Assembly: GCA_002205965.3 (NCBI GenBank)
Contig: NADL03000506.1
Span: 310,001 to 374,000, forward strand
Reading direction: 5' to 3'
DNA from: Kappaphycus alvarezii
Lineage: Eukaryota > Rhodophyta > Florideophyceae > Gigartinales > Solieriaceae
Length of the DNA: 64,000 nt
Position numbers and translations under genes: made by a program. Below are positions 26,681 through 47,389 of this stretch, piece after piece (position 1 is the first letter of the stretch; each line of letters begins with the position of its first letter). The notes under the pieces were generated by a model. The model did not search any database, was not told the origin of the DNA, and saw only the letters and a program-made list of their open reading frames with translations.

Positions 26681-27791
26681 TTAGGCGTCACAGCAGCCGC
26701 AGCATGCCTTTGCATCAATACCCCCCGCACCTTTCCATAACTTTCCATAACCTTCCATACCCTTCACGGCTACGCCCCCTGCGATCTCAGTTATCACCGC
26801 ATAAGCATCGGGGTGCCAGCCTCCCAAGGTGCAAATTGTCACAAGGACGAGCCTACTTCGGCCAGAATTCGCCATGAATGCTTGCTGCCTTCTGTGCGTC
26901 GCGGCCCGAGCTGCGTTCAAAGCGGCCAGCGGGTTAAACGCTCTCACCCTACCATGTAACGATGCAGGAGCGTTGGCAAAGGTGACATCAAAACAGTCAC
27001 TTCCGTCGCGGCTTCCCATCGCTCGTATGTCCGGCTTTGAACAGAGAAGTCCCTCGCGAGGCTCAACAATGGAGTGGCGAGGGGCTTTGGCCTAGTCCCC
27101 AATGAGGACGTTCACATGGCGATCGTGGCACTGGGTCCTTCGAGCGCCGTGCAAGCAATGCAGGGAGTGGTCGCGGTACACACCCAATGTTTCTGGGCAA
27201 TGAAGTCGCGGCCATGGCGTGGTGGGAGCGAATAGCGGGACTTGGCAGTAATACTTGAGGCACTGCCAGAGTTCGCGTGCTTCCATATGTGTTTGGAGTC
27301 CGGGGCATGGAGTGCAGTACACCCATTCCTTAGAAATCGGAAGCCCCGTCGACGCTCGAAACGCTTGTCGTCTGGTGTCTCTGGGGGAATTGCATATTGT
27401 ACTGCCACGTGGTTAAAATCGGTCAGGCTTTTTCGCGATGATATGTAGGGGAGCAAACAATTCTGAACGGGATTACTGTAGACGGTAAGCAGGCCGAAGA
27501 CCGTTTTTGGAGAGCGTCCACAGCGGCAGCGTACTATTCTAGACCCTTGATTGGCGACGGCAGGAAGTTTTTGCACAGTTTGCCCGTCGCCGAGCTGGAT
27601 GCAAGGAAGGCTGCGGGGGCGATAGTTTTCGCGGAGGTAATGCCTATTCCCAGGGGTGTCGTTTTGGCACCCTTGACTTTTACCGCCACCTGCAGCTCTT
27701 TGAAGACCTTTGAGTCTGATGGTGCACCCTGATATCTTGTGGCACAGCAGCAGCCGTGGCACAATTTGTGAAACGATCGAATCGATTCCAT
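26681..27791 (-). pseudogene. Non-LTR retrotransposon, RT thumb to endonuclease C-terminus (broken)
   Basis: Read on minus. 27791-27534 contains GIGITSAKTIAPAAFLAS, the (G)G.G(I/L)...A..AFLAS region that follows the RT domain in this superfamily. 27322-27092 contains HCPETLGVYRDHSLHCLHG and a CHDRH word, a degraded zinc motif of the C....D..GDHA..C..G...RHN kind. 27019-26681 contains CFDVTFANAP (the D-V-T endonuclease-like motif) and TLGGWHPDAYAVITEIAGGVA, the conserved C-terminal tail. The segments lie in different phases with stops. The enzyme would reverse-transcribe and insert its own RNA using a restriction-like endonuclease. This copy lacks the RT core. Confidence 0.65.
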
Positions 27792-28208
27792 CTACTGCCG
27801 ACCAACCCTCGGTCGACCGTGGAACATTGCGTCTCGGGGCGCGGGGTGAAAAAATCCCCTCGCTATGTGAAGCAACAAATTCTTCCGCTACCGAAAAATT
27901 ACGGCGTCACCCATCGAAATCACGACTTTACTGATTTGTTCCGCACGCTCTACGCACTTTTGCAAGCGATTCCAACGAAGCGCGGCAGCCAAAGCAAGGG
28001 AAACTGCATCCACGGCATGGACACAATTCTGTATTGGAGCAGAGCGTTACCAACGGCAGGAAGGGTCAAGAAAATTTTAACTCAGTGCACTAAATTTTGA
28101 TTTCCCCGGCTTGTACACGATCATCAGGAAATGCCTCTTTAGGGAACAACCTGCCGTCCTAAAGAACTAGCCCAGCGGAACTGTTACCAGTTAGATTTTC
28201 ACGTACTG
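27792..28208. other. Uncertain; probably the upstream part of the same retrotransposon fragment
   Basis: No independent gene is supported. The minus-strand reading has ALAAALRWNRLQKCVERAEQ, which could extend the neighbouring element, but no diagnostic motif is present. Confidence 0.3.
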
Positions 28209-28238
28209 TAAATACTGTCAGAATTCTGACAGTATTTA
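28209..28238. repeat. Perfect 30-bp palindrome centred on GAATTC
   Basis: Self-complementary without a spacer. The left half is TAAATACTGTCAGAA. There is a related ACGTACTGTAAATACTG word just upstream. Confidence 0.9.
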
Positions 28239-28311
28239 TACTGCTGGCCAGGAATAAAAAAAATTATTTCATGACATGCACTTAATAAATGAAAAAATTC
28301 TATTACACAAT

Positions 28312-28422
28312 TTAATTCCCCCCCCCCAGGCCCAAACCGGAATTATTACCGCATAAATAATTCCAGTTTAGGCATTATCACCTCATAAATAATTCCGGTC
28401 CGGTTTGGGCCTGGGGGGAATG
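28312..28422. repeat. Foldback (MITE-like) repeat, copy 1
   Basis: The arms start with a C-run followed by AGGCCCAAACCGGAATTATT and return as its complement with a G-run. The middle contains two further AATAATTCC words. The same arms recur at 28707-28741 and 29941-30105. Confidence 0.75.
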
Positions 28423-28617
28423 AAGCCATAATCATAATTATGACTGCCATGTCCTCAATTCGAGAAAAAAAATAAATCCTCCAGACATGATTATCATTAC
28501 TGGTGGCCAGGAATAAAAATTTATTCCGTGATATTCACTTATTAAGAACCGACCATATCTTCCAAATATTAAATCACCCCACATTTTCCCCCTTGCTAAG
28601 TGAAAAAATTCTATTAT

Positions 28618-28850
28618 TTAGTTCTTAACTTAATAGTCGGTCAGTGAGTGTACACTCCAGAAACATCATGAGTAAAGTTTATTATTATTATTATTATTAC
28701 CAGGCAATTTAATTCCCCCCAAGACCCAAACCGGAATTATGACCTCATAAATAAATTATGGAGTCATAGTCATAATTTAGACAAATCGTTTACTCATGAT
28801 GTTTCTTGAGTGTACTCTCACTGACCGACTATTGAGTTAAGAACTAACTG
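28618..28850. repeat. Inverted pair of a second repeat, with (ATT)n
   Basis: GTTCTTAACTTAATAGTCGG...GAGTGTACACTCCAGAAACATC at 28618-28670 returns inverted at 28795-28850. An (ATT)n run and half of the C-run foldback lie between. Further copies are at 29651-29732 and 34624-34675. The pair flanks and touches the retrotransposon fragment at 28837. Confidence 0.6.
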
Positions 28851-29559
28851 GATGGTGAACATCGGTCACGTGCAGTGGAGCACGGGAAATGATGGATATA
28901 GCCGCCGAGGACCGCAGAACACAGCTGAGGCGCTGATAGATTCGCGAGCGAATAGTGGCATCAGAGGTGTGATATCTGGTCGCAATCCGCGGAATGAACG
29001 TTTCCAGAAACAGAGCGGTGGCTGCGGACGCCGCTCCAAGGGAGTCAAGAGCGAGCGGATGGAATGTGCAATTCGGCTGGCGTGACGGGTTGTCAGATGG
29101 TGATACAAGGCGCCTGGAGAGCTTACGCTCAAGGTCCTGGACTAAGTTGCGGTAAGCTTGCGTGGCGGCGCCTGCGGCGGCTTGCGTTGCTTTCGTGACA
29201 GAGGCCTGTTTGAACGGCGAGACAATAGTAACGTCACAGGCAATTGGCCTGTCCTTGGGGCCGATGGCAGGGGCTGGGGGTTGCGAGAGGAGGTCAGCAG
29301 GCCTAAAATTAGTTCCAAGAATTAACAGAGGGACTTCGAACATGTAGTCCAAACCCGCAGCGCGGAAGACATGATATGCGAGGGCGTTACGGATGGAGTT
29401 ATGCCGGTGTAGGCGGCCAAACCCCGAGGGGCAGAGGTCAGCCGCATGGTCTCCATACTGACCTAACGTCTGCTGGCAATGATGACACTTCGCCGGGATC
29501 GAGTCCGTGTATACTGGAAGTATCCCGCCGACTGCCATGTGATTAATTCCAGCGAACAA
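28837..29559 (-). pseudogene. Non-LTR retrotransposon endonuclease domain, longest continuous copy
   Basis: 240 uninterrupted codons, truncated at the N-terminus (no ATG; it begins after a repeat). Cys25 and Cys28, GDHAADLC (36-43) and RHN (52-54) form the zinc motif. FRPADLL (85-91), CDVTIVSP (108-115) and FHPLALDSLGA (167-177) match the RPAD, D-V-T and PL..(D/E)SLG words of the restriction-like endonuclease region found at the C-terminus of some non-LTR elements. The C-terminus has RIATRY...TIRSRIYQRLSC.L..SAA, then PLHVTDVHHPVSS. There is no internal stop or frameshift, which is unusual in this zone. It is flanked by foldback repeats. I infer a 5'-truncated insertion captured within a foldback. 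Confidence 0.7.
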
Positions 29560-29802
29560 ATAATTCCACAGACATGATTATCATTAGTGGTGGCCAGGAA
29601 TAAAAAAAATCTATATCATGATATGCACTTAATAAATGAAAAAATTCTATTGGTTCTTAACAAACAAACATACGCTTTTATTAACTGGTCACTAAACTTA
29701 ATAGTCGGTCAGTGAGTGTACACTCCAGAAACAGGCTGGCCTCCAGAAGCTGGCCTCACACAACAGCCCTGGTAGGTATTACCCCATGACTCGGCCTCAT
29801 TT

Positions 29803-29896
29803 CCAGACTCTCCATTACACAGACCTGTCCCACTTAGCCTTCGGAAAATAGCCATCCTGAATCCGTAATCAGTAAAGCACCCCAATTTCCCCCCCT
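29803..29896 (+). repeat. Dispersed repeat R, copy 3
   Basis: An uninterrupted copy with CTTAGCCTTCGG at the position corresponding to the piggyBac-like insertion site. Confidence 0.75.
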
Positions 29897-29940
29897 CCAG
29901 CATCATCATGAGTAAAGTTTATTATTATTATTATTACCAA

Positions 29941-30105
29941 GCAATTTAATTCCCCCCCCAGACCCAAAACCGGAATTATTGAATATGACTTCATAATTTA
30001 TTTCGCAGGTAATAATTCCGGTTTGGGAATTATTATGATTATGACTTCATAATTTACTTATGAGGTAATAATTCCGGTTTGGGTCTGGGGGGGAATTAAA
30101 TTGCC
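29941..30105. repeat. Foldback (MITE-like) repeat, copy 2
   Basis: The left arm is GCAATTTAATTC, a C-run and AGACCCAAAACCGG. The right arm returns as CCGGTTTGGGTCTGG, a G-run and AATTAAATTGCC. A nested AATAATTCCGGTTTGGGA word sits in the middle. (ATT)n and (AAT)n runs flank both sides. Confidence 0.75.
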
Positions 30106-30850
30106 AGGATATAATAGTAATAATAATAAACTTTACTCTTGCCTACCAGCTACTTTCTAGCTGGTACACACGCTCAAGCACTTGCAATAGTCCCGCCAAT
30201 GGTTTGATTACAAATACAGAGGACTCCCAACCTTTCCATTACTCGCAGTAAACCAAAACCAATTGAGTAAACCAATTTTCCTACCCCCTTCCCCTCGCCG
30301 CCCACGCACGGGTGTGCCACGCTTCTCCCCGCGTCGCCGTCCCGGGCGGCCCTTCTCCTGGATCGGCGCCGCCCCCTTTCCGTTTCACGCCGTTCCCCAA
30401 CTCTGACCACACTTGTCCGACCTTTACATTTTCTCACTTCTTCTCCCTCAATTTCAGCGAATTTTTTGGATATCCACATCTCCTCCTGGACAAGCTCTAC
30501 TCAGCATCTCCGTAACCCTCCGCTACTGCACAACTTCCGCGATCAGTGACGCGCCCTGGTCTTCCTCGTCACCGAACCGCACTTCTCAAGGTCTGAACTC
30601 CGTTGGCAAGTTCAATATTTCAAACGGTCACTTTTTCCTAGTCCTGCATTGCTGGTCATTCATTAGCGCCACGTGGCCACCTGGTATCAAGAGGCCTTGG
30701 TGACATTTACAGTATCGGAAAGGGAGGTCTGAAGTGCATACCGACCGTACAGGACAGGAAGTCCCGAGGATTGGCATACAGTACAGTATTGTAGTAACTC
30801 CAATCGCTTAGTAGGGTGCACTGCTTTTAGGGCCTCAGGGAAGGGAAAAT
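30106..30850. other. No gene recognised
   Basis: Includes an (AAT)n run, a GC-rich block at 30285-30400 and a TACAGTACAGTATTG word at 30780. It is probably the untranslated 5' region of the retrotransposon that follows. Confidence 0.4.
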
Positions 30851-32004
30851 TTGTTACCAAGAATGCCCTCTGCCAGTACAAGTGCAGACGCAGTGGCCCG
30901 TCACAAACCAGGTGATCCCGAACATGGCTATGCCCCAAACCACTTCGTCCGGCGTCGAGCGCCCCCTACAGCGCCCTCACCACTGTCCCTTGGGTTGTGC
31001 ATCCATCACGGCGACTACCGTGCATGGGTTGGTTTCACATCTCCGCCAAATGCACAAACCCGGCAAGAGCTCCACCAGTAACCACCCCAAGCGCACGCAG
31101 GTTCCAAGCCTGCAGGCCTGCTTATCTTCTTATGGATACTGGTACTGTTATGCCACAAACGTACATGAGCTCAACGGTTGGGCGTAAGCTTCAAAATGGC
31201 CTTCATTCCTACACATATCGGCCATGCCCGGAGTGCGGCGACAGGTTCTCAACCCCTCCTCGGTACACTCCGCTCTTACCCACGCAGCTTCGCTCCACTC
31301 CTCGAGCACCATCTGCATCTCGTGTACCGAACGAGGTTACACCCCCTGAGGCAGCTTCAGCCTCAACCAATCCACCCGAACCACAGCCCATCCGGATGCC
31401 ACTCCTCCTCCGCCTTTGCCACCACCGCTCCCTCCTTGAACGGCCCGAGGAGACAGCCGCTTCCCCCCTTGCACACAATCTGCACTACTCACGTCCCGCT
31501 AGCGCAACACATACCGCGACGTGAACGTCAGCGGATTTCAAGGGAGCTAGCTCTTGTCCTTGAAGAATGCGCGGACGCACCACATGGTTCTCCTCAAGCT
31601 GTGGAGGCATTCACCAAGTTGTTCCTATTCCCGTCCGCGATCCTTGCCAATCCCAAGCCCTCCACCCTCTCAACCCTCGTTCCGGGCACAGCATCAAATT
31701 CCCGTATTTTTGCTGAACGCATTCAACTTTGGCGTGATGGACAGTACGAAACTTTGATGCGAAGGGCAAACGCCTTGGCAACCGCCCGTTGCATAAGGCA
31801 ACGAAGAGGAACAAGCGGGATCAACAAACGGCGCGCCCTGAGGCTTGCAAAGGAGGGCGCTTACGGCAAGGCAGCGCGAGCGCTGGGATCTTCGGGGATC
31901 GCATGCCCCTCCGCAGAGGTGGTTTCCATTCTTCGGGAGAAACACCCACAGCGCTCTCCGACTACGGAGTCGTACCAACCCGCTTCCCCTGACTCGTTGC
32001 CGGC

Positions 32005-32770
32005 TTGCCCCCACTTCACTCCAGAACTTGTTCTCCGTTGCGTTCGGGCTTTCCAAGGGGTAGCGCCGCAGGGGGATCCGGACTCCGCCCAAACCACCTC
32101 GTTGAGCTTTTACAGGTCCCACCAGTTGTCAATGGTGGACGAAGCTTGCTAGCTGCTCTAACTAGTGTGGTCAACTTGCTAGCCAACGGGAAGGCCCCTG
32201 CGGCTATATCGGCATGGATCGCAGGTGCGCCGCTACGGCACTCCTAAAACCAGACGGGGAATCAGCCGATCGCCGTGGGCGAGACCTCCGTCGCTTGGTG
32301 GGAAGATGTTTGCTGACTCGCATTTCCGAGAAGGCTTCCGAATACTTCAGCCACTACAGTTGGGAGTAGCAACGTCAGGAGGATCTGAGGCAGTTGTCCA
32401 CGCTGTACGGCGACTTTATGAGGAGCATGGCGAATCGGCAGAGTATGCACTGTTAACCGTTGACCTTCAAAACGCATTCAACCTGGTCAGCCGAAGTGCG
32501 TTTTTGAAGGAGGTCGAGCAGAGGTTCCCAGAGCTCTTACCTTGGGTCAATTACACGTACGCGGTAAACCCGGGTCATCTGTGGTGTGGGGATGATATGC
32601 TCCGGAGCGTGGTAGGCGTGCAGCAAGGGGATCCTCTGGGTCCACTTTTATTCTCCCTTGTGCTGCAAAAAGTGACGCGGGAACTGAAAACCCGCCTGGA
32701 AAATGTGGCGACACCACAGGCAGGCCTTCTCTACTCCTTCAGCTATGGTACTTGGACGATGGGTATATAG
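32005..32770 (+). pseudogene. Reverse transcriptase core, frameshifted before the catalytic YLDD
   Basis: Two overlapping frames. 32005-32247 carries GSAAGGSGLRPNHL and LANGKAPAAI, the RT entry region. 32225-32770 carries GVATSGGSEAVVHAVRR, LLTVDLQNAFN (first catalytic Asp) and GVQQGDPLGPLLFSLV. A one-base deletion in GTGGCGACACC, relative to the inverted copy downstream (GTGGCTGACACC), shifts the frame, so the YLDD box is lost here. The next frame begins at 32858 and resumes the thumb region. Confidence in the RT assignment is high. Confidence 0.85.
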
Positions 32771-33103
32771 TGGGCACCCATGAAGCCATTCGAGGGCACT
32801 ACAATTCCTCTCTTCCGCGGAGGTGCGTGCTTTGGGTTTGCACCTCCGCATGGATAAGTGTGCCGTCTGGTGGCCAACCGCTCCCCCCCGTCTGTTCAGC
32901 AGTCCTTCCCAGCCGACCTTCGCCAGGACTATAGTGAAGGGACAAAAGTGCTTCGCGCCCCAATCGGATCGGACCTATTCGTGGAGCGCGAGTTCTCAAA
33001 GCATGTCGCTTCACTGAAGCCTCTCCTCAGCGCTTTGTTAACCCTGGAGGACACTCAAGTAGCTCTCCATCTACTACGGACCTGCTTCGGCGTATGTCGC
33101 ATT
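32374..33103 (+). repeat. Left arm of a 0.73-kb inverted duplication
   Basis: Nearly identical, in reverse orientation, to 33875-34608. It differs by a few single-base indels, notably near 32713, 32793 and a C-run near 32885. The spacer between arms is about 770 bases. Confidence 0.9.
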
Positions 33104-33188
33104 AACTACCTCCTACGTGTAGTTCCCCCTCATTCCACTGCTAAAGGGGCGCGGAATTCGATTCCGCTGTTGAAGCTACACTGCGGGG

Positions 33189-33874
33189 TTGATGGGCGGG
33201 GTTCTGGACAGCAACACTTTTCGGAATTACAACTCCCTGTGGCGCCCTTCGGCCCCCTCAAGCCAACTTTTGGCATTGGGCTTCGCTCTGCGAAGCTCAT
33301 GCGGCGGCTGCGTTCCTTTCCTCCGTGTCCCTCACGCGTGCCCTTTGCTCTACCCTTCTGCTGTGCTACCGAACACTGCTCTTCATTCATACAAATCCGC
33401 AGTTCGGGCGCACGACGACTGGAAGACACAAGTGGCACCCGAGAAGGTGGTCCATTTCACATTGCGGCTATCGACTCAGTGCAGAGGTTTGGGCAGGGCC
33501 AACTCGTCCGCCCAGTTGAGGAAAAGGCCTTTGATGCCATGCCGAAGGGGGATGAGAGGACTGTTGCATTCCGAGCCTCGTTGTCAGAGGAGGGTTGCAA
33601 GGACTGGCTGTCATGCCAACCGGCTCCGGGGTTGGGTACCTACATCCCGGACCGCAATTACAAGACGTGGTTGCAGTTCTATTGCAGAGTGCCACTGTTT
33701 CCTCCAGCCCTCGAAATGCCACAAAGGGGGATGCACGACCCTCATGGATCAGTATGGTGACCACGCGCTGTGCTGTGCCTATGGATCCACGCGCGGGTGG
33801 CGGCATAACTCGCAGACACGTTTGTTTGCTGCAGATCTTTCCAAAGCTGCCCGACACCCTGTCCTCGAGCCGCC
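33189..33874 (+). pseudogene. Retrotransposon region after the RT, ending in a GDHALCC/RHN zinc motif
   Basis: The plus-strand frame near 33740-33830 reads MDQYGDHALCC..GSTRGWRHNSQ, the zinc motif of this element family, which sits between the RT thumb and the endonuclease. The true coding phase changes at least twice in this stretch, as other frames hold thumb-like words. The sequence departs into the inverted RT copy at 33875, so the endonuclease is absent. Confidence 0.65.
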
Positions 33875-34608
33875 AATGCGACATACGCCGAAGCAGGTCC
33901 GTAGTAGATGGAGAGCTACTTGAGTGTCCTCCAGGGTTAACAAAGCGCTGAGGAGAGGCTTCAGTGAAGCGACATGCTTTGAGAACTCGCGCTCCACGAA
34001 TAGGTCCGATCCGATTGGGGCGCGAAGCACTTTTGTCCCTTCACTGTAGTCCTGGCGAAGGTCGGCTGGGAAGGACTGCTGAACAGACGGGGGGGGGAGC
34101 GGTTGGCCACCAGACGGCACACTTATCCATGCGGAGGTGCAAACCCAAAGCACGCACCTCCGCGGAAGAGAGGAATTGTAGTGCCCTCCGAATGGCTTCA
34201 TGGGTGCCCACTATATACCCATCGTCCAAGTACCATAGCTGAAGGAGTAGAGAAGGCCTGCCTGTGGTGTCAGCCACATTTTCCAGGCGGGTTTTCAGTT
34301 CCCGCGTTACTTTTTGCAGCACAAGGGAGAATAAAAGTGGACCCAGAGGATCCCCTTGCTGCACGCCTACCACGCTCCGGAGCATATCATCCCCACACCA
34401 CAGATGACCCGGGTTTACCGCGTACGTGTAATTGACCCAAGGTAAGAGCTCCGGGAACCTCTCCTCGACCTCCTTCAAAAACGCACTTCGGCTGACCAGG
34501 TTGAATGCGTTTTGAAGGTCAACGGTTAACAGTGCATACTCTGCCGATTCGCCATGCTCCTCATAAAGTCGCCGTACAGCGTGGACAACTGCCTCAGATC
34601 CTCCTGAC
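33875..34608 (-). repeat. Right arm of the inverted duplication
   Basis: A reverse copy of 32374-33103. The inner junction falls at AATGCGACATACG. The outer junction is at CTCCTGAC, followed by the TGTTTCTTGAGTGTAC repeat. Confidence 0.9.
34041..34608 (-). pseudogene. Reverse transcriptase fragment with intact YLDD box
   Basis: This inverted copy of the RT reads continuously through LLTVDLQNAFN, QQGDPLGPLLF and WYLDDGYIVG, so both catalytic motifs are in one frame. The plus-strand partner has lost the frame between them. The phase remains open to PPVCSAVLPSRPSPGLQ. It lacks the N-terminal domains and the endonuclease, so it is a fragment. Because this arm keeps the frame, the duplication predates the deletion seen in the left arm, or the deletion is a sequencing error. 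Confidence 0.8.
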
Positions 34609-34748
34609 AATTTTCCCCCTCTTGTTTCTTGAGTGTACTGTATACTCACTGACCGACAATGAAGTTAAGAACTAACAGAATTTTTTCATTTATCAAGTGC
34701 ATGTCATGAAATAATTTTTTTTATTTCTGCCCACCACTAATTATAATC
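34609..34748. repeat. Copy of the GAGTGTAC...GACCGAC repeat
   Basis: TGTTTCTTGAGTGTACTG, then ACTCACTGACCGAC and GTTAAGAAC, as at 28795-28850. An AT-rich tail follows. Confidence 0.6.
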
Positions 34749-34886
34749 ATGTCTGAGGGAATTATTTTTTTGCAGGAATTGAGGACATGGCAATCACAAT
34801 TACCTCATAAATAAATTATGAAGTCATAGTCATAATAGTGCCATGTCCTCAATTCCCGCAAAAAAATAATTCCCCCAGACATGATA
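34749..34886. repeat. Foldback repeat with about 45-bp arms
   Basis: The left arm ATGTCTGAGGGAATTA...GAGGACATGGCA returns as TGCCATGTCCTC...TAATTCCCCCAGACAT. The middle is a TCATAAATAAATTATGA-type core shared with the 28.7-kb repeats. Confidence 0.7.
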
Positions 34887-34897
34887 ACCGAAATTAA

Positions 34898-35116
34898 TTA
34901 CGCACTGCACTGTACAGTCCACTGCAGAATCCGACTATAGGGATAGGTACTAATCGGATGGTCCACGTCGGTCACGTGCAGAGGCGTTAGTGAGCAGATC
35001 GCCATAGCGATAGACGACCAGAGGATGCAACTAAGGCGGTGATAGACACGCCGGCGTATCACGCCTGCAGTCATACTATACTTCCGCGCTATTCGCGGGA
35101 TTAACTCATCAACCAT
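34898..35116 (-). pseudogene. C-terminal tail of a non-LTR retrotransposon protein
   Basis: The minus-strand reading RIARKYSM, then VIRRRVYHRLSCILWSSIAM and PLHVTDVDHPIST, aligns with the end of the 28837-29559 frame (RIATRYHTSD, RIYQRLSCVLRSSAA, PLHVTDVHHPVSS). Only the last 60 or so residues are present, as expected for a severely 5'-truncated copy. Confidence 0.65.
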
Positions 35117-35260
35117 TACGATAGTTTGTACATACTGTACAGTATAGACATATACCTAAAGAGAAAGAGGGACTTTTTGTTCTTAAGATTCAGGCAGGGG
35201 GCCACGCATGAGCCCCGTCTGGAGGTCAGGTGGTGGGGTATGTGCGCAGATTTCGGTGAT

Positions 35261-35890
35261 TCAGCATAACCGCGGTATATCGTAGGACAAACATAGAGAC
35301 ATGTCTCTTGAGATTCTGGAATTCAGAAAGGGGGTGCTTCCCTCGACGCTAAGCTGTAAAGTTGCTAAGATCATGAAGAGCCTGAAATCCGGTTGCTCCG
35401 ATTTGTCCTTAGATATCGATGGAGATAGGTAGGACTTCAATTCCTTCAGAACGACACGGTATCGTGTAGTGTTCCTTTTTCGCCTTTCGGCCCAGGTCAA
35501 CGCTGCGAGACCTCCATCTGCCTGATTCGGTATGGCACGGAGTGAAGGCTGACAATGGTCACATTTAGTCCCGTGCGATGGGCGCGAATTGAGGGTCGCC
35601 GATGAGGAGGTCCAGTTCCCGCTGCTCGGTTGGGCTTTTGTAGAGGTCAGCGACAAAGACCCCTTCCCGAAATATGGTGAGGGAGATGACAAGGCCTGTA
35701 AGTTCGCAGTATAGCATATCTAGACGGTTGTGGCGGCGCACTACACCCACACCACCTTTGCAGGTCGTTGCGTGATGTTCCGTGGTGTCGAGGAGAGGGG
35801 ACAGTATAGTTACCTTCCAGGAAGGTAGGGCAGCGCTGGAGGCCGCAAAATATTGGGTTGCCTAAGCGAAGGTCGACCACCATGCGCCGT
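35261..35890 (-). pseudogene. Non-LTR retrotransposon, zinc and endonuclease region, variant subfamily
   Basis: The minus strand holds VDLRLGNPIF and a Cys pair (35880-35800), RRHNRLDMLYCEL (about 35735-35700), FREGVFVADLYKSPTEQRELDLLIGD (about 35670-35595) and VTIVSLHSVPYRIRQ (about 35565-35520). The FxADLxxxPxxxRxLxLxIxD block, also seen at 39345-39525 and 46769-47389, replaces the RPADLL word of the other subfamily. At least two phase changes or stops break the copy. Upstream (36104-35890) is a Pro/Leu-rich low-complexity frame. Confidence 0.6.
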
Positions 35891-36286
35891 ATCTCCCCAG
35901 AGGTGTATGGGTCGGTGGAAGACAGCGGGATTGCTGAGAAGGGGGCGGAAGCAGTGGAGGAGGCAGCAGAGGCCAGATAAGCAAAAAAGTGGGAAGAAGA
36001 GGCGGTAGGGATCGATGAGTGCAGCAGGGAGACGCGGGAGCGGTGGAAGTGATGGATGATCTCTTCCTGGAGAGAGCGGGTGGCGTTGTGGTGGAGGATG
36101 ACATTTACTATAGAGAGCGCTCAGAATTTTATGGTGGCATTGTGGACTTCGGGGAAATTTCTAGGTTATTTTAAGGCATGGAAGATGTGGTCGGTTACAT
36201 CCACTCCGCTAATGCGTTATGCGCGATAAGTCGTCACTGATGGGTAACACTACATGACCTTCCTAACAGGGCCGGCTCAATGCCAG

Positions 36287-36475
36287 CTAGCAGGCATGCC
36301 GCGTTAGACATGACGGCCGCGGCAGCGTGCCTTTGGGTAAGTATTGCTCTAACCATCCAATAGGTCTCCATGCCACGTTCCGCGCGACATCGGTTACCAC
36401 CGCGTACGCGTCAGCGTGCCAGCCTCGAAGGGTGGATATTGGGATAGGCACAAGCCTTCCTGTGGACTTTTGCCT
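36287..36475 (-). pseudogene. GGWH.DA-type C-terminal tail of a non-LTR retrotransposon
   Basis: The minus strand reads STGRLVPIPISTLRGWHADA, then YAVVTDVARNVAW, and ends in a TAG. It aligns with the tail at 26681-27019 (RSRLVLVTICTLGGWHPDAY). There is no adjoining zinc or endonuclease motif. Downstream at 36508 lies a TACAGTACTGTA word. Confidence 0.65.
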
Positions 36476-36489: not shown

Positions 36490-37298
36490 TTAGGCAATAA
36501 TATTGAGTACAGTACTGTAAAATAATAATATATGAAAGGCATCAGGGATGGCTGAATCAGAGGTAATTAATTATTATCGTATCATGAAAGTCTATGAAAA
36601 TGACAATGCTGTCATTATTCCCCAACATCATGACATTATTACATTATTGACTTCTACTGAGGCAAGTACTGTAATTAATTAGTAATAGTCATTTTTATTC
36701 TGCCGTCCAGAAACATTATGAGTAAAATTATTATTATTATTATTATTGTGTCCTAATACTGCATTCAATTTTGTTAAGAGTAATTATTTGTGCATCATGT
36801 CATTAATTCTATTATGACTTCTGGAAGTCATTAATTCCTTCACGACTTCCAACGCACAGGTAGGGAATAAAATAACAAATTCTGGGAAAATTCTATTACG
36901 GGGAATTAAAAAAAAAATAAATTTTTATGTGCTGAAAATTCTATGACCAATAATTACCGGCCATCAGTAAGTCATGGCCGGGGTATTTACAGAATGTAAC
37001 AGCCAGACGTCTCAAAATTACAGTTATCTTTACAGTGTAAGGGCAACTGTAATGGCTCTTGGCCTCACATCTATTGGCCACCACGGGTTCATCAGGTTCT
37101 CCAACCCATCTCTGGCCACTGACATATCATTACTAACATCAGCTACCAGCCAGAACATCCTGGGTAACAGTCGCTCACATCTTTCTACAAAATGTTAATG
37201 ACCCTAACCTTTTCCACCCACTGCAGGATCCGAAGCACCTACCCTCTCACTAGCCCCAACGGTGCAATGTCAGACAAACACAGAAGGTACCAAGGTCT
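36490..37298. other. No gene recognised, AT-rich, with (ATT)n
   Basis: Contains an (ATT)n run at about 36728-36750 preceded by CCAGAAACATTATGAGTAAA, the same junction seen next to the repeats at 28665 and 29905. No supported gene. Confidence 0.5.
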
Positions 37299-37523
37299 CA
37301 GTTCTGCATCGCCCGAGGGCTACACCCCATTCCAGTCTCCGCTGTAGGAGAATGGCATCCGGGAGCTTTTTCCGTTGTCACGGGGCTGGCAAGACCTGTC
37401 TCGAATAGAGCTATGGAGCGTTTCTCGAGTATGAGATTATTTTTTTGCAACGGCACACTAGTGGTCTCCTCTAATGCAGCCTGTTTGTTTTCCGGTCTCC
37501 CCGGATCTTTCTACATAGAATGA
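37299..37523 (+). pseudogene. GGWH-type C-terminal tail, plus-strand copy
   Basis: The plus strand reads FCIARGLHPIPVSAVGEWHP, then GAFSVVTGLARPVSNRAMERF, and stops at a TGA. It matches the tail at 36287-36475 in opposite orientation. It lies immediately before the thumb region of another copy, so two different copies meet head to tail here. Confidence 0.6.
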
Positions 37524-37639: not shown

Positions 37640-39043
37640 CTGTCTCCTAGCTGATGCTGTCCTCGTCTCCCTAGTTTCTGAGGAAGGCATTTCGCTTCTC
37701 GGCGCAACCTCCTCAGCTCCTATGAGTTCATGCGTCAAAAACTCCAGGCCTCCACAGACAGCTGCAAATCTGCATCGGCCCAGCTCGACATATTTCCAGA
37801 TGCCCGCATCCGCTTCCAACTCCACAGAGTCACCTCGTCGGTCTGCCTCGTTTAACATATCTTCTGCCTGGTGCTCCCGGATATTTCACTTTTGCTTGCG
37901 ATCCGGTTTGATGACCTCCAGATAGTGGAGACATATACCCGGCTACGTCACGTCACCCTTTCACCGTCTGCTTGCTCGCAGGTGACAATCTCCATCAGGT
38001 TTGGCGGACATGGATTCCAACCACTAGCTGATAATATCCATGTTTACTATGCCGCAAGCCTGGTTGCACTTGCAAGGATCGAGTCACTTGACCTGACCAT
38101 CTTTACCTATCCTTCTATTGCCGTATTCCTCGCATCCCCTTCGGTGGCTACGTCGCACTCCTCGACCGCATTCGGGCCCGGGTTTTGAGGTTGGCGCCCT
38201 CAACCTCGGCCCCTTCGAGCCTGGAACACTCGCCGAATGCACCTACCATCCCTTCACCCTCCTGGTTCAGATGCTCCATGAAACCGAGGCCTGTACATAC
38301 TGTGATGATAACCTTTGGAACGCTCACCCAAACCCTCGGGGCCACAGCGCCGCATATATCCACACGCGCTCGCTGCAGCTTCCTTCTCTCCCCAGGCGCC
38401 GCCATCTTCCTCACTGCCCATCCCTCCACCACCTCCATGGCCCACAAGGATGTCTGGTCAGTTATGCTGTGCCGACATTTTGACCTCTGCATTTACGAGG
38501 CCTCGGTAGCCGCGATCCGTTTCCACCATTGCCATGCCGCAATGGACCACGCCTCGATCTGCAAGTCTGGCTATTGCGTTGTGCACCGGCACAACGCCAT
38601 TTGGCACCTCTTCACCAGTCATGTGTTCAAGGCCGCCGGTCTCGCACGTCAGCAAGAGGGTTCCTTCTTGCCGACTGGCACTGTCCGTCGCCCCTCCGAT
38701 ATCCTCGTTGAACCCAGCGCCCTGCCCATGGTTCCCCGACTGACAATATCACCGCACACGACATTACGGTACGCTCTACGTCTGCCTCTGCTGCAATTCG
38801 ACACGCCGTCGAGAAGGCTACTGGCGCTGCTGAGCTCGCGGATACAACTAAACTTAGGACGCTCCAGCGGAGGGTGCGCGCTGGCATTTCGTCCCGCTCG
38901 CGTTTGACACCCTTGACGCGCGACGTGCCCTCGATAACCATGCTGAACGGATCCCGTTTCGTTCAGCCCGTCGTTACTCTGTCGTCCGGGCACATCTGTT
39001 GCAACGGAAAAGTTTCGCCATCCTCGCTCGTATGAATCTGTAA
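37640..39043 (+). pseudogene. Non-LTR retrotransposon, thumb to C-terminus (broken)
   Basis: Plus-strand words in order: EEGISLLGA, then YEFMRQKLQAS and FPDARIRFQLHRV (RT thumb/linker, 37670-37840); IRFGGHGFQPLADNIHVYYAASLVAL (38000-38075, the GG.G(L/F)...A..A(S/A) block); AAMDHASICK..YCVVHRHNAIW (38530-38605, zinc motif); RRPSDILVEPSAL (38690-38725, RPAD-like); HDITV (about 38750, D-I-T motif); and HFVPLAFDTLDA (38880-38920), ending NL at a TAA (39041-39043). Phase changes occur at least four times. The order equals that of the 28837 and 26681 copies, which supports one element family. Confidence 0.65.
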
Positions 39044-39059: not shown

Positions 39060-39336
39060 TCAATGACATGCGTGATGGGCCATGGTGTGGAGGAGAGGGG
39101 GAATAGTGTAGTTACCTTAAGGCAGGAAGGCAGCGCTGGCGGCCGCAGAATATTGGGTTGGCTAAGCGAAGGTGGACCATCGTGCGCAATATGTCGCCGG
39201 AGGTGTATGGGTTGGTGGAGGGCAGCGGGAGTGTTGAGAAGGGGGCGAAAGCAGTGGAAGGGGCACTAGAGGCCAGACGAGTAAAAAGAGGCGAAGAAGA
39301 GGCGGAAAGGATAGTGGGGGTGCAGTGCGCCGCCAC
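39060..39336 (-). pseudogene. Fragment of the variant retrotransposon subfamily
   Basis: The minus strand holds a low-complexity Leu/Pro/Ser block, then RTMVHLRLANPIFCGRQRC. This matches 35890-36104 (VVDLRLGNPIFCGLQRC) with its similar low-complexity leader. Only this junction region is present. Confidence 0.5.
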
Positions 39337-39344
39337 AGCCGTCT

Positions 39345-39525
39345 TCGGGACACTCTATACCGCGAACTCATGAGCTCGGCCGTTTCCCTCACGGTATTTT
39401 GGGAGCGAGCGGGTCTTTGCCGCTGACCTCCACATGAGCCCAGCGAAGCAACGCGCATTGAATCTCTTTATCGACGACCTTCTATTCGAGCCCCCTGCAC
39501 AGGGTCATGTCGTCATCTGGATTCG
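39345..39525 (+). pseudogene. Variant-subfamily endonuclease-region fragment
   Basis: The plus strand holds DTLYRELMSSAVSLTVF, then in a neighbouring phase VFAADLHMSPAKQRALNLFI and DDLLFEPPAQGHVV. This aligns with 35660-35560 and 47095-46950. It is orientated opposite to the fragment directly upstream (39060-39336), so the two have been joined by an inversion or separate insertions. Confidence 0.6.
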
Positions 39526-39616
39526 ACTCAGAATAGGCATCCATTTACAGTTTTTCCGTGCTGTAAATCTGGATAAGGTTCGCACAGCTTGGAATTCATT
39601 CCCGCTTTTATGAAAT

Positions 39617-39686
39617 AGGGGGAGAAATTGGGGTGTTTACTGATTAGGGATGGAGGACGGCTATTTTCCGAAGACTGCTACGGAAG
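39617..39686 (-). repeat. Dispersed repeat R, copy 4, inverted
   Basis: The reverse complement of the right two thirds of the repeat. It begins after a G-run, contains CTATTTTCCGAAGACTGCTACGG and ends at AAGAATG. Confidence 0.7.
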
Positions 39687-41039: not shown

Positions 41040-42017
41040 ATGCACAATAGCAATGTCGTCACCGTCTGCCAATCATTCCTCATCATCTTCTTGCGCCACC
41101 CTTCCTCCCGCTCGATACCAAATCAACGTCCCTGCAAACCATCTCAACAAACAAGAGGTGAAACCATCACAGACGTCATTGATGACAAAGAGATGGCTAT
41201 GGCGATTTGGAACGGTCTTCCGGAGAGGTTTCACAGTCTTATTATATTTGCGCCATTCAGCGTCTTCCATTTCCCCGCCTATCCCCTCGTGTCGCCCTCC
41301 CCCCACCTAGGCACAGCACAGGTCACCCCACCAGTATCGCCAAGGTGTTCCATCGCTGGAATATCCACCTCTGCATCACCCGTCCAACGGCGCTCAAGGC
41401 CATGTTGCACACACGTTCCAAACACGACAACTTGTGCACCGTTTCCCTCTGTCCGTTCCATGTGCAAATTTTTCGATATTTCTTCACAACGTGAACAGCG
41501 AGAAAACCGTTCCTTCGCGACAAGTAAACATTTCTCCTCGCCCCCCCCCCCTTTGCTCCCGGGGATCTGTCTTTCCGACCCCTATTACTCCCCGCTTTAC
41601 CGGCTCGCAATTCCCGGCCCTCATGTATGAACGAATACAGCATGCTGTCGTTAACAGCCACATGTACCTCTGCACAGTCCAGCCGTTTCTTTGTCTTGCT
41701 GCTGTCTGCCTGTTCTCGTGAACAATCTCTGGGTACCTCTCCAGCATGCCAATGGCTCCCAGATCCTACTCAGCGACATGCTCCCACCTAACCAACCAGT
41801 ACACATGAGGACCACGCCCCTATTCAAATCACCAGGTGGTATGATCGTGGGCAGCTGCATTACGACTGACATAGCCAGCACAACATAAGTTACATCGCTC
41901 CATTAGTCCAAAGCCATGTTCACTGTGACAACCCGTCGCATCCGCAAATTCCACCCGGCACACCCAACATCGCGTCCTCTCGTCTACCGAAATCAAAAAG
42001 TCCCCAGTGCCTACCAC
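41040..42017 (-). other. Possible degraded minus-strand gene
   Basis: Several minus-strand frames look partly protein-like. 42017-41829 contains TRCWVCRVEFADATGCHS, and 41747-41484 is in the same phase, but stops separate them and no domain is recognised. It lies just downstream of the methyltransferase stop. It could be a decayed gene or compositional openness. Confidence 0.2.
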
Positions 42018-42109
42018 ATGTCGCTACACGCATGAAGGGCATACACAGCATGTCACAGTTTATCTCCATCGCCTGCCTTTCACCCCATCAACATCGCCAC
42101 CACCACACC

Positions 42110-43549
42110 TCAAGGTACACCAACCAAACACGCAAAACTGCTACTTGCACTGCCCCTTGCTGTATCCCCCTCCAACCCCCTCGCGTCCTCACCAACCACG
42201 CCTGGCTTTCTCATCACAAGACACCTGTCAAACCCCTGGAAATCCTTCACAACCTTCACAAACTGCAAACCCACCGCCTCAAACACCTCCACCACCTCCA
42301 CCACCCTCCTCAAAGCTCCAACCTCCACGACAACCCACCCACCACCCACCACAACATCCCCAGCGCACGCCGCGACGCCCCGATACCCTTCCATACCATC
42401 CTCCCCCCCCACCAACGCGCCAATCGGATCGCCCTGAAACAGATCCCCGCCTCTCTCCACCTCCACCGCCGTCAAATACGGCGGATTACTCACAACCACA
42501 TCCACCACACCGCCTCCCAACCTCCGCGCCACCTCCTCAAATCGCATCTGTTCCACATGCACCACCGCACCCCCACCCACCCCTTCCGCCACATTCCTCC
42601 GCGCCACCTCCACAGCCTCACCGCATACATCAACTCCCAATCCCCATCCGCCCACCCCACCACCCTCCATCACCGCAATGATCAAATTCCCACAACCTGT
42701 CCCCAAATCCAACACACGCGCCTCAACACCGTCCTCGCCCGCCTTTACTCGCGCGTAGAATGCCTCACGCAGACATTGCGCCCCAATGGTGGCGATGAGC
42801 TCGGTGCTTTCTCGGGGTTGCATGGCATTGCGAGTAAAGTACCACCGGTCACAAAATAGGGATTGTGCTTGTTCATGGTGGAGACGTTTGCGCGGATGTT
42901 TTAAGCGACGGAGAGAGCGGGAGGCGGCGAGGGAATCGATACGATGGAAGAGGGTGAGAAATTTGGGGGGGATGCCGGGGGTGAGGTGAATGTTGTGAGG
43001 GGAGGGCAGGTGGAGACGGGGGATGCAGATGTAAAGGCCGTGGAGACGGAAGCCGGGAAGTGGCTTGGAGCGTGCGACGGTGCCGACGGCGGGGCAGTTC
43101 AGGGTGTGAAGGCGGTTGCGAAGGGTGGTGGCGGGGTGGGGAGAGAGAATGTGCAGGAGGGAGAGAGTGGTGGTAGAGGTGTGAAAGGTGCGTAGGAGAG
43201 TGGTGGAGAGGGTGTCGGGGAGAGAGTTTGGCGGGGGTGTGTGGTGGGTGAGCGCGAGGATGTGGTGCACGGGCTGTTGGGGGGTGAGGGAGAGGATGAC
43301 GGGGGAGGAGATCGGACGCGGGGGATGGGTTTGCACGGGGAGGTGAGCGGTTGCTGGGATCGCGGTCACCGGCTTGAGCCCAGTAAAGGGGATGCCAGGC
43401 GGTTTGTGGATGACTTCCAGCGTCGGGGAAGTGTGCAGGGTGTGGAGCGTGTTGGCGGCAGGGGATGGGACCAGGGGCGGAGGAGGGAAGCAGGACTCGG
43501 GATTTGGGATGGTGGAGATAATGGCAGAGGTCAGTCTAGTACAGGTCAT
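42110..43549 (-). CDS. PrmC/HemK-like methyltransferase with a pseudouridine-synthase-like N-terminal half
   Basis: 479 codons from an ATG, without introns. Residues 230-450 form an S-adenosylmethionine methyltransferase of the glutamine-modifying PrmC/HemK type. Evidence is PRESTEL (245-251, compare PR.(D/E)TE.L), DLGTGCG (281-287, the cofactor loop), SNPPY (354-358, the NPPY box that binds the target amide), LVGGEDGMEGYR (379-390) and FDRCLVMRK (440-448). PrmC-type enzymes methylate Gln in translation release factors. Residues 44-185 resemble an RluA-type pseudouridine synthase: LEVIHKPPGIPFTG at the start, then RNRLHTLNCPAVGT and LYICIPRLHLPSP, the usual end of that fold. The catalytic HRLD segment between them is not seen, so synthase activity is doubtful. 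The two halves also differ sharply in base skew. Confidence 0.75.
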   Translation of the reverse strand: MTCTRLTSAIISTIPNPESCFPPPPLVPSPAANTLHTLHTSPTLEVIHKPPGIPFTGLKPVTAIPATAHLPVQTHPPRPISSPVILSLTPQQPVHHILALTHHTPPPNSLPDTLSTTLLRTFHTSTTTLSLLHILSPHPATTLRNRLHTLNCPAVGTVARSKPLPGFRLHGLYICIPRLHLPSPHNIHLTPGIPPKFLTLFHRIDSLAASRSLRRLKHPRKRLHHEQAQSLFCDRWYFTRNAMQPRESTELIATIGAQCLREAFYARVKAGEDGVEARVLDLGTGCGNLIIAVMEGGGVGGWGLGVDVCGEAVEVARRNVAEGVGGGAVVHVEQMRFEEVARRLGGGVVDVVVSNPPYLTAVEVERGGDLFQGDPIGALVGGEDGMEGYRGVAACAGDVVVGGGWVVVEVGALRRVVEVVEVFEAVGLQFVKVVKDFQGFDRCLVMRKPGVVGEDARGLEGDTARGSASSSFACLVGVP

Positions 43550-43629
43550 CTTCGGTTGAGGAAGGTGTCTACAAAAAGACGTAGTGGTAGTGGCGGCGGA
43601 TTAATGTTCTTGATAATTTCTACCAAAGT

Positions 43630-44102
43630 TTAAAAGAGAGACCTGCGATCCGTACTGTACAGTATTGTACCCTCTAATAAATTAAATAAAAATAAAATTA
43701 TGCGCTGTACTATCTTGGCTCCGGATAATCGCCCTTCAAAATGTCTCTCTCTCATCGCTGGCGTTCTTGCTGTGCGTTTGTAACGCAAGTGTGATTGCTG
43801 TTGTAGCAAATTTCGGACGCACCGCGGCTTTACAGACATCTGAAGTGCTTTTACCAATCGAGCAGATCCAAGTTCTCCTTGTGATGCAGCTCTAATGATC
43901 CGTCGCTTCATAGCCTCTTTTAATTTTGATGGCCGTCCAGAGCTTTTTTTTTTCCATACCAGTTAGGGTCCTTAGTAAAGCGAGATATAACGTCTCTAGA
44001 CCTTCCAAGTTCCCTTGCGATAGCAGAGACCCTCCAGCACTCCGCATGATAGGCCAACATCTGCCCTTTTTCAAATGAGTTAAGGAACAGCTTATGCGGC
44101 AT
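43630..44102 (-). pseudogene. Tc1/mariner transposase N-terminus, frameshifted at a homopolymer
   Basis: An ATG at 44102 opens MPHKLFLNSFEKGQ, then a helix-turn-helix (SAIARELGRSRDVISRFTKD). A run of ten A on the coding strand (43944-43953) shifts the phase. The second frame (43911-43630) continues with MKRRIIRAAS...SARLVKAL and VRNLLQQQSHLRYKR, the second DNA-binding domain and linker. The catalytic DDE domain is absent. It binds inverted repeats in living relatives. Confidence 0.75.
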
Positions 44103-44177
44103 CTTTAAGGCTAGATCGATAGGTTGATTCTGTTCCTTGGTTATTGCAGATACTGTACTGCGGATGTTGTATTGCTA

Positions 44178-45713
44178 CAGTGCACGAAATGGTGATAAAT
44201 ACACCATCGGTGGGGGGGCCAAAAACGGTCCTTCAGTGAAGCTGCATTACTAGCCAGCTGCATTTTTAAAGTAGAATAAGGCGCTGAATCCGAATATGGA
44301 CTCCCAAGTAAAGAAAGATCAAACAGAAACAGGTTTTTCTTTAAAAAAACCGAAAGAAATTCGTTTCAGTACACGAAATTCTATATGACACACAGCAATG
44401 AAACGTTTACAAAAGAAAAACTAATACTTCGTAGCATCCCCCTTCTTTCTCAACTACTTCAATGAGACGCCTCGGAATCGAGTCGTACAGTTGGTGGAGG
44501 TAACCTTCACCAAGATTATCCCACACATCCAAAACCTTATTAGCGAGGTCCTCCACACACTTAAACTGCCTCCCATTTTCATAAACCTTCCGAGCCATCA
44601 AAACCCACACATTCTCAATAATGTTTATATCAGGGGACTTAGCCGGCTACTCCAAAGATTCAACGTTATGATCACGCAACCAATTCTTCGTGTAATTTGA
44701 GCGGTGTGGAGCAGCCCCATCTTGTTGAAATACCCAGTTTTCGCCCAATTTTTCTACCGCAAATGGCAGTAGCTCCTGTTGAAGTATTTCACAGTACGAC
44801 ACGGAGTCAACTTTGCCTTTGCAGTTAAACAAAAACGAAACTCCATGATACGATATTGCACCCCATAACATCACTGATTCCCCCCTTGCTGACGTGTAGA
44901 CAACATACGCTCATCTATCCTGAGGTCATGCCACTAACTTGCTAAACTATCTGGCCCGTCCAAGTTGATTACTGCCCTTTCTGCAGCATCTCCTTTGCCC
45001 AGCCAAGCCTTGTGTCTTTATGCCTTTGTAACATTGATGGATGCTTCCACATTTTTTTGTACTTCAAATGCGGCGCTTCATTCAATATCTGCTGTACTCT
45101 TCGCACTCCGACGGGTAATTCAAGAGCGCTTTGGAGCTCCCTCGCTGACTTTTCACCCTTGGCGGCCACTCACAGTCGTCGACGAATCTGGCGTTTCGCA
45201 ATTTTTCTGCGTTCCGTGAGACTTGCGGGAGTCAACTACTTTCGGGCGCTTGAGAAATTCTTGGACTGCTCCGGGGGACCGATTCAAACGACGAGAAATT
45301 TCTCTGACGGTCACGCACTCAGGGCACAAAGCCAAGATCTGACTTTTTTCAAATTGAGTGAGTAACTTTCCCCGGGGCACATTGCTGCCATGAACTGAGG
45401 TTTTGGCATTGGGGGGGAAAGGTCTGGATTTATACTATTTATTTGTGCAAACAGTTTCGAGTGTATCCCCTTTTCCCGCCATCTGTATACTTTTGAATAG
45501 CTTGTGCCTTATAGAATTTCGTGTACTTAAACGAACTTCATTCGATTTTTTAAAGAAAAAACCGTTTCTGTTTGATCTACCTTTACTTGGAGTCCATATT
45601 CGGATTCAGCCCCTTACTTTACTTCATAAGTGCAGCTGACTAGTAATGCAGCCTCACTGAAGGACCGTTTTTGGCCCCCTCCGATGGTGTATTTATAACA
45701 ATTTCGTGAACTG
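44178..45713 (-). mobile_element. Tc1/mariner element 2, complete with about 205-bp inverted repeats
   Basis: The terminal inverted repeats are 44178-44384 and 45511-45713, roughly 90 percent alike by eye, starting CAG(T)(G/T)CACGAAAT. The TA target duplication is at 44176-44177 and 45714-45715. The element is 1536 bp and contains one decayed transposase on minus. Both repeats carry a GGGGCCAAAAACGG-type block near the outer end. Long inverted repeats of this size are known in some Tc1-like families. Confidence 0.85.
44407..45380 (-). pseudogene. Tc1/mariner transposase, full length but broken
   Basis: Minus-strand frames in order: PRGKLLTQFEKSQI (start codon eroded to GTG at 45380), VREISRRLNRSPGAVQEFL (helix-turn-helix), SARELQSALELPVGVRRVQQIL (second DNA-binding fold), LGWAKEMLQ, MMLWGAISYHG, WVFQQDGAAPHRS (second catalytic Asp) and SPDINIIENVW (third acidic residue). 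There are two frameshifts and an in-frame TAG near 44645, so no active enzyme is made. C-terminal words YDSIPRRLIEVVE finish close to the inverted repeat. The family assignment is secure. Confidence 0.85.
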
Positions 45714-45984
45714 TACTTATTCAACAGTTTGAGCAAGAATAAAACGCTCATCTGGCGAAAAACGGGTGTATTGGTCCGACTTTAGCTATATTTATTGCCA
45801 GGTCCTTTCGGTTTAATTTGCGCACGATGTCTCCCAAAATATTAAATTTTTTAGAACTCCGTTTTCTTAGTTAGACTAATCTTTAAAAGTATTACTCCTG
45901 TACAGGAAATCATGTGTGAAACTTAAAATACGTCTAACGGTGTTTCAAATCAGGCCACCCGTCGTATATTTATTGCCACCACTG

Positions 45985-46768
45985 TAACGGCTATTCTATG
46001 CAGTGAACTTTGGGCTCCTTACATCTCAAGTAGAAGCCTGTCAGTACGGTATTTTTACAGAACCGCAGTTTAACTGAATCGAGGGTTTGGGTAAAGTGGG
46101 TCAAAATATTTCTTTTTTTGAAAAATTAATTCTGCTCGCAATGGGTTCCTGATACTTGTAACAAGAATATGCCTACTACCATTTAGAATTTGTACCAAGG
46201 TTCAGAACCAATAACAAATGAGAACTGCACCAATGAATGATTTTGTGATGACCCCAGTGTTCTTCTACTAGCCGCATATCAGGCCACTTCTGGGTCATAG
46301 TAAGGAAAAAATCACAAAAAGATTATTATTGTGTCTGTAGTACTGAGGGGCGAGGGCAACTAGATAGCTTTTGCAAAATTCCATCATATTTATTAAAAAT
46401 CCTAAAACAGCGCAATTACAGTGAATCAAAAATTTATAATTGCTGTATTACGCCACGTATTGTGTCCCTGAATTTAAGTCACAGGTGTTGAAGCTCTAAA
46501 GAACCTGAACCTGAACGGAACCTAAACACTGCCTTCACTCCCTGATTTTAAACTGAGATACACGTGTACCCTAACGATGATAAGAGAGAAATGGGGACCT
46601 TAAATGGATAAATGAAGTGAGGGGACCTTTCGGGCCCGCCGACCTACGTGCTATTGGTGGGTTGGGAAAAGCGACGTTAGTTAATCATCATCGCTGTGTA
46701 CTTCCGGACGTAAGGGGAGACCGTCGCCATCAGATTCTCGTATTCGCGTGTAGGGCTGGCGCCGCGCC
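45985..46768. other. No gene recognised, AT-rich
   Basis: Nothing recognised. It follows the right end of Tc1/mariner element 1. Confidence 0.5.
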
Positions 46769-47389
46769 TTAGGGCGATGTAGTGATAAACGTGCTGAGGA
46801 CGGCTTGCGCTTCGTGTCCCAGTTGACGGTAGACATCGATGGCGGCGGCGCGCATATCGATACCCTCAGCGGCGCATAGGTCGTCGTACGTTCGGTGCTT
46901 CCGCTTCTCGGCGGCGTCGAGCACGGTCTGGGCCCGGTTGCGGTACGTGGAGGAGTGAGGGCTTACAATTGTGACTTCGATTCCTTGAGGCTTAGGGGCG
47001 AGGGCAGCGTCGTCGATGACCAGGTCGAGAAGGCGGCGCTCGGAGGGTTCCTTGTGGAGATCGGCTGCGAACGCCTTTTCTCGGTAGACGTTCACCGAGA
47101 GCTTAGAATCTCTGAGCAGATTTTAAAGGAGGTCTCTGAGGCCATTGTGGCGCCTGACGGCACCCACTCCGCCGGTAAATACGGAGGCGTAGTGTCCTTG
47201 TGCGTCGAGATTCGGTATGGGCCTGTAGGCACCTCTTGCACATACCGGGCAGCGTTCGGAGGCGGAGAAAAGCGTGTTTCCCAAGCGTATATCGACCATG
47301 GTGCACCATATGGCTGGGGCGGCATAGTCTTCCCTAAAGGTACTTGGGAGAGCAGCGAAGGGGGCGGTGGCGATGGTGTACTGACACAA
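46769..47389 (-). pseudogene. Non-LTR retrotransposon, variant subfamily, best copy
   Basis: The minus strand holds TMVDIRLGNTLFSASERCPV, LDAQGHYAS and GAVRRHNGLRDLL (47389-47123), the zinc motif of this family with CPVC, D..GH and RRHN. In another phase VYREKAFAADLHKEPSERRL, LDLVIDDAALAP and IEVTIVSPHSSTYRNRAQ follow (47095-46940), then a helical tail YRQLGHEAQAVLSTFI and a stop. One phase change separates the two halves. The ADLH..P...R.LDL.IDD and VTIVS.HS..YR.R blocks define a subfamily shared with 35261-35890 and 39345-39525. Confidence 0.65.

Follow-up and report, generated by a model that had tools for sequence, protein, structure and literature searches.

Strings in which retrotransposons without long terminal repeats (LTRs) follow each other head to tail are known for the non-LTR elements HeT-A/TART and Zepp. 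Most known long interspersed nuclear elements (LINEs) with a restriction-like endonuclease (RLE) use fixed host repeats (rRNA or snRNA genes, for example) as target, as stated in a section of PMC4640811, which also describes the NeSL/Utopia elements with one protein carrying a reverse transcriptase (RT), followed by one zinc finger and the RLE at the C-terminus. Directly before the endonuclease, RLE LINEs harbor a knuckle of the type CX2-3CX7-8HX4C (excerpt of PMC5678591). In this study, we analyzed a stretch of 64,000 nucleotides (the window) from the red alga Kappaphycus alvarezii, comprising positions 310,001 to 374,000 of contig NADL03000506.1 in a 336-Mb assembly of 884 contigs (GCA_002205965.3). 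We are confident that the pieces described here represent RLE-type LINEs following the R2 plan in decayed, for the most part 5'-truncated form, i.e., with a protein consisting of RT, CCHC knuckle, and a putative C-terminal PD-(D/E)xK-like nuclease. In kind, they are RLE LINEs and as such already known.

The order of RT, CCHC knuckle, RHN, and PD..D.. endonuclease is the same as in R2 (R2Bm, R2Tg, and others; PDB 8gh6, 9dou, 9nl3, and 9nl2), and the GxWH..D word at the C-terminus of R2 is also present in one of the lineages found here (group II). Differences from R2 lie in the RT, which revealed an identity of 21–27% for groups I and II each and whose catalytic site reads WYADDG, WYHDDG, or WYLDDG, and in the flanks, many of which are other elements. 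With respect to the 28S rRNA genes used by the R2 clade, scanning with Rfam, which covered the window, found no family. With NeSL/Utopia, the elements share the single protein with RT, one zinc finger, and RLE in this order. No Pfam match in six frames was obtained for a Ulp1-like protease (as in nematode families of NeSL) or RNase H, the N-termini of the proteins not being fixed, nor for an apurinic/apyrimidinic-type endonuclease (APE) besides the RLE, which is a feature of Dualen/RandI. Telomeric HeT-A/TART arrays are strings of non-LTR elements, too (PMC5537684, in the part cited here). In contrast to these and to Zepp, the elements of our study are interspersed within contigs, encode RLE-type proteins, and mix several lineages.

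Pfam family RVT_1 was detected in two of ten frames of the window and in four of the six frames scanned from elsewhere in the genome, i.e., in every frame holding an RT (E 2.9e-14 for locus L039 and 1.1e-9 for L061). A LINE-type RT is present, as a profile built from 11 genome frames (A1; L047, L048, and L049 are not fully in frame in their N-terminal stretches) matched 13 PDB sequences, R2 and LINE-1 among them, with R2 proteins as best matches (E 1.9e-17). A second collinear stretch of this profile aligned C..C..H..C-RHN-RLE on the R2 knuckle, which is weak when taken alone (5.6 bits); using the group II profile alone, the second stretch was limited to the C-terminal word (2.2 bits). In the window piece, the knuckle reads CX2CX9HX4C with the histidine supplied by GDHA; in the elements, this knuckle is located between RT and endonuclease and aligned on the R2 knuckle. 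A first-pass annotation of the window, made from the letters alone, had called the zinc words GDHA...RHN distinctive; they turned out to be an ordinary knuckle plus the start of the endonuclease, one residue longer than the pattern in the cited excerpt of PMC5678591. A literature search on GDHA together with retrotransposons as well as one on the RT words WYADDG/WYLDDG/WYHDDG/QQGDP resulted in unrelated work only, a search on red algae with RLE in no work at all, and one on Kappaphycus in nothing of use among the entries listed. Proteins with GDHA..RHN-like words also occur in other protists and in animals. Taken by itself, the pair H..RH[N/D] is little better than chance as a marker (eight matches in the window, five of them inside real pieces, compared to six in the reversed window).

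A C-terminal endonuclease of the PD-(D/E)xK-like type is supported by profile comparison. The endonuclease region alone, using hhalign with groups I and II (28 and 5 sequences, respectively, counted before removal of exact duplicates), matched the R2 RLE with 81% (E 1.2e-5, 136 columns); separately, group I reached 42% and group II 57%, and five decoys at most 0.63%. The DVT aspartate was aligned, with the stretches of RPAD/KPD and of the lysine helix coming to lie near each other. With regard to this motif, the R2Bm chain in 8ibw of the PDB set has KPAI, presumably as a catalytic-residue mutant, and 8gh6 has KPDI. The endonuclease frame had no match in Pfam and NCBIfam, and phmmer of the window piece against PDB resulted in a single chance match (E 0.37). 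The AlphaFold model of six window rows (A4) was too low in quality to interpret (pLDDT 45.1, pTM 0.27), so that the assignment of the fold rests on sequence. Since RT, knuckle, and endonuclease match R2, the RLE-type LINE identity proposed by the first-pass annotation is supported.

Searching the window by tblastn with nine element proteins (eight long frames from elsewhere in the genome and the window's own 28837 frame) yielded 84 matches, corresponding to 26 slightly overlapping pieces with a summed length of 8,163 bp, and the reversed window gave zero matches. The earlier view of one superfamily sharing a set of ordered words applies loosely: some pieces do show these words, others carry only C-terminal tails and not every word, and we distinguish three related lineages, with groups I and II being just 30–35% identical in the RT. 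Group I (window 28784–29577 and others) is characterized by GTQQGDPASMLLF and QWYADDG in the RT and by a LHVTDVHHPVSS-like tail. Group II harbors the RT word WYHDDG in IIa and WYLDDG in IIb, and IIa additionally RPDI..FFDVTF..GGWHPDA. Group III, with RRHN..AADL..IEVTI, was observed in the knuckle-endonuclease part only and is absent from the RT tree. In this unrooted tree, which was built without reference sequences of CRE, R4, HERO, NeSL, Utopia, and Dualen, three R2 rows formed their own branch (support 100). Long frames from stop to stop comprise 1,066 aa (L039), 1,230 aa (L061), and 1,002 aa (L065, terminating within the knuckle). Among six compared copies of the type designated Y, five span about 4.46 kb with 96.6–99.3% identity to or including L039, and L044 matched with 99.1% over 3.0 kb. 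No relatives were found in a collection of viral contigs searched with the window piece, profile A1, and L061, or in a phage collection searched by tblastn.

The copies revealed a fixed 3' end and variable 5' truncation. In group I, the 3' untranslated region (UTR) is short (about 45–60 bp) and ends in GTAAA or the ATAAAGTTAC type; by pattern, the terminal word was detected at 61 of 63 group I 3' ends, two of these being judged spurious. Downstream of 57 group I 3' junctions, a member within 180 bp was found on the same strand in 22 cases and on the opposite strand in three, with none in 32. As a control, random 180-bp stretches of the window gave 102 of 1,500 (6.8%) and 94 of 1,500 (6.3%), respectively, resulting in P 7e-12 against this control and P 1.6e-4 for the strand, both assuming independence. 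Excluded from this count were L075 because of a contig end, L092 and L103 for lack of a credible terminus, L050 as it shares its locus with L010, L025 owing to an odd terminus, and L078 as a near copy of L077; L048 and L089 were scored as none despite an element tail visible by eye behind them. If the neighbours were random nested insertions in an element-dense genome, the two strands should be equally frequent, in conflict with the 22 versus three observed, and ten loci from the RVT_1 search (36,836 bp; those read were Ty3-type) were without any group I or II piece. Although candidates at first look are indeed numerous (15,647 for group I, 10,661 for group II, and 2,728 for group III), we consider random nesting an improbable explanation. 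The downstream partners start at many different protein positions, and flanks coincide at the join in one pair only (L029/L038, 30 bp), so that the joins look independent.

At the 5' side, the element's terminal word AAAGTTAC, allowing at most one mismatch, was found within 80 bp upstream of the Y 5' end in six of eight copies (control 3.5%, P 5e-8). Together with the junction counts, this supports the preferred target suggested by the first-pass annotation, with the tails of other copies as that target. Locus L039 has a U tail upstream and a truncated Z downstream. Flanking duplications were detected in L040, where 29 bp extend from the tail of an older Y copy into the L040 flank, and in L045, where 12 bp are duplicated and no element tail was seen upstream by eye, no search having been made.

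Judging from family and anatomy, the element nuclease would nick the target DNA, and the RT would copy the element RNA onto the nick, starting at the fixed 3' end of this RNA, i.e., by target-primed reverse transcription. On balance, we lean towards a preferred nick site resembling the element's own 3' terminus, (G/A)TAAAGTT(A/T)C, by which earlier tails, including those of sister families, would serve as landing sites; mixed head-to-tail strings and local clusters would therefore arise. More tentatively, the three lineages may share a landing code, a common (G/A)TAAA-type 3' terminus making the tails of all members a favoured target; since 3' termini were read only in group I, this code is conjecture for groups II and III. 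If true, such a community would grow as mixed head-to-tail strings with genes being spared. Elements targeting their own tails would represent a solution to landing without killing the host that differs from the use of fixed host repeats, and copies with long open frames make this testable. The nick site, if as short as it appears, would inform on the choice of DNA by this class of endonuclease. In the literature searched on self-targeting, nested or head-to-tail elements, and novel RLE clades, a tail preference of RLE LINEs was not found.

Several observations count against this landing preference or weaken its support. With 32 of 57 junctions without neighbour, tail landing amounts to no more than a preference. 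Of the V copies, which were assigned by eye, L101 was the sole one to score, via a 21-bp match 160 bp off. The count also depends on the reference set: an earlier one with a smaller set gave 19 same, 5 opposite, and 33 none of 57, and was superseded after element sequence had been added, upon which L101, formerly opposite, was scored as same, and both L084 (previously same) and L029 (previously opposite) as none. The strand bias extends beyond the join, as 81 stretches of 195 bp located another 400–1,400 bp downstream included 19 same and 4 opposite; long partners partly explain this, yet the bias is not specific to the join. Moreover, the junction copies were picked for similarity to the window piece and not at random. 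Regarding the 5' ends, the Y copies L046 and L106 lack the upstream tail word, L108 and L109 are similar upstream and possibly not independent, and four of seven additionally fetched flanks had no Y 5' end where expected and were left out. In L046, an internal RT chunk lies between Y tail and Y 5' end, which tail targeting does not explain.

The joins are also explained, and this chunk is better accounted for, by template jumping, the main rival, in which the RT leaves the RNA of one element during an insertion and resumes synthesis at the 3' end of another RNA, several elements entering together as head-to-tail strings. Template jumping by R2 RT occurs in vitro (PMC8857657, in the portion cited), and in our set, many joins begin at a 3' terminus or close to it, their downstream partners being truncated at differing points. 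According to the same portion of PMC8857657, however, it may be physiologically unnecessary. Furthermore, the 29-bp duplication of L040 contains the non-element sequence TCATCAC, located behind the older tail as well as behind the new copy, which fits an insertion that took place later, into a tail already present, and L045 has the tail word where no upstream element was seen by eye. We rate template jumping as rather unlikely; insertion at tail-like sites of relatives is favoured because of the junction counts, the upstream tail word, and the L040 duplication.

Concerning the density of pieces, about 12–13 endonuclease pieces were present compared to about 5.5 expected per 64 kb, the latter derived from loose first-look candidate counts, which is a modest excess. 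Tail landing and local duplication (the inverted copy of a IIb RT, see below) fit this density. A recombination-poor refuge preserving old copies, the other idea of the first-pass annotation, would agree with the old and broken state of the copies and with the tblastn coverage by groups I and II, which is restricted to 16–40 kb of the window; given the modest excess, a refuge is not needed for the cluster, and we regard it as very unlikely.

In the following, starting points given by the first-pass annotation are added in brackets as "formerly"; apart from one, all of them were confirmed by tblastn, by blastn for the first scrap, or by comparison within group III. The first piece is a group I scrap of C-terminal tail and 3'UTR at 10181–10267 (−; formerly 10200; blastn 79.6% to Y copy L045, E 2.8e-15), whose reading frame contains ..HVADVDHPVG. 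A strongly decayed group I knuckle-endonuclease piece at 22481–23038 (+; tblastn 28%, E 6.4e-9) had not been annotated before. At 26659–27746 (−; formerly 26681), a IIa linker, knuckle, and endonuclease (KPDI..FDVTF) with GGWHPDA tail was identified (tblastn 56–75% to L062, E 3.7e-92). It is followed by a group I 3'UTR at 28624–28677 (+; 98% to the L020 3'UTR), lying tail to tail with the next element, the longest group I piece at 28784–29577 (−; formerly 28837). This C-terminal piece carries the CX2CX9HX4C knuckle, RHN, RPAD, CDVT, and the tail LHVTDVHHPVSS, its 3'UTR terminates in GAGTAAA, and it has at least 152 matches in its own genome. A further group I 3'UTR piece is located at 29692–29733 (+; 95% to the L020 3'UTR).

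The fragment formerly placed at 30851 is not an endonuclease piece, but belongs to the N-terminal half of a long, broken IIb copy at 30815–33851 (+; tblastn 56–89% to L065) with N-terminal part, RT (QQGDPLGP; RVT_1 at 32183–32770, E 5.2e-8), and knuckle (MDQYGDHALCC..RHN), the final piece of which (33708–33851) is weak (tblastn E 4e-4). Its RT was new to our analysis, as was an inverted duplicate thereof at 33872–34619 (−; QQGDPLGP, WYLDDG; RVT_1 E 8.3e-12), of which 33875–34608 is 98.9% identical to 32374–33103 over 734 bp. This duplicate is a recent rearrangement truncating an already broken element.

Next to it, we found a group I 3'UTR piece at 34623–34669 (−; 83%, E 1.3e-6), a group I C-terminal piece at 34917–35122 (−; formerly 34898; tblastn 61%, E 3.1e-19; blastn 72%), and IIa C-terminal tails at 36267–36460 (−; formerly 36287; tblastn 70–78%) and 37177–37511 (+; formerly 37299; tblastn 37–45%, E 1.9e-13). 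A frame-shifted group I linker, knuckle, and endonuclease at 37712–38876 (+) was covered by four tblastn pieces (36–46%, E down to 6e-24); the fragment formerly placed at 37640 and the one at 38092–38876 probably belong to this single copy. Group III is represented by knuckle-endonuclease pieces at 35397–35931 (−; formerly 35261; E 1.1e-13 and 2.9e-9 to the 46769–47398 copy) and 46772–47398 (−; formerly 46769; RRHN..AADL..IEVTIVSP with one frame break; at least 150 genome matches scored), a knuckle piece at 39130–39258 (−; formerly 39060; E 1.5e-5), and an endonuclease piece at 39407–39505 (+; formerly 39345; E 2.4e-7). These four are mutually 36–57% identical (E 1.5e-5 to 1.2e-15), and the same comparison against the reversed window gave zero matches.

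Apart from these pieces, some further features were observed. In the genome, 14 homeodomain matches and 3 matches to phycobilisome families, together with the absence of Zn_clus matches (a family that gave none in the control genomes either), hint at a host resembling red algae. Elsewhere in the genome, L001–L006, L008, L063, and L064 are LTR elements of the Ty3 type whose pol frames are open, L094 harbors a 62-bp Y 3'UTR unit as head-to-tail repeat, and in L106, a tRNA-Val gene (71–146) is located about 80 bp upstream of the 5' end of the Y copy. In the window, palindromic stretches were found at 28618–28847 and 29907–30141, the first consisting of two group I tails face to face, and L029 has a similar tail-to-tail hairpin. 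Repeated pairs at 44165–45726 (85%, inverted) and 48310–49317 (73%, direct) were unmatched by the element proteins used. Tandem units of 20–22 bp around the near-palindromic word ACTCATATGAGTAC are present at 7284–7325 and 10041–10082, and 3.3 repeats of a 20-bp unit (97% matches) at 17480–17545.

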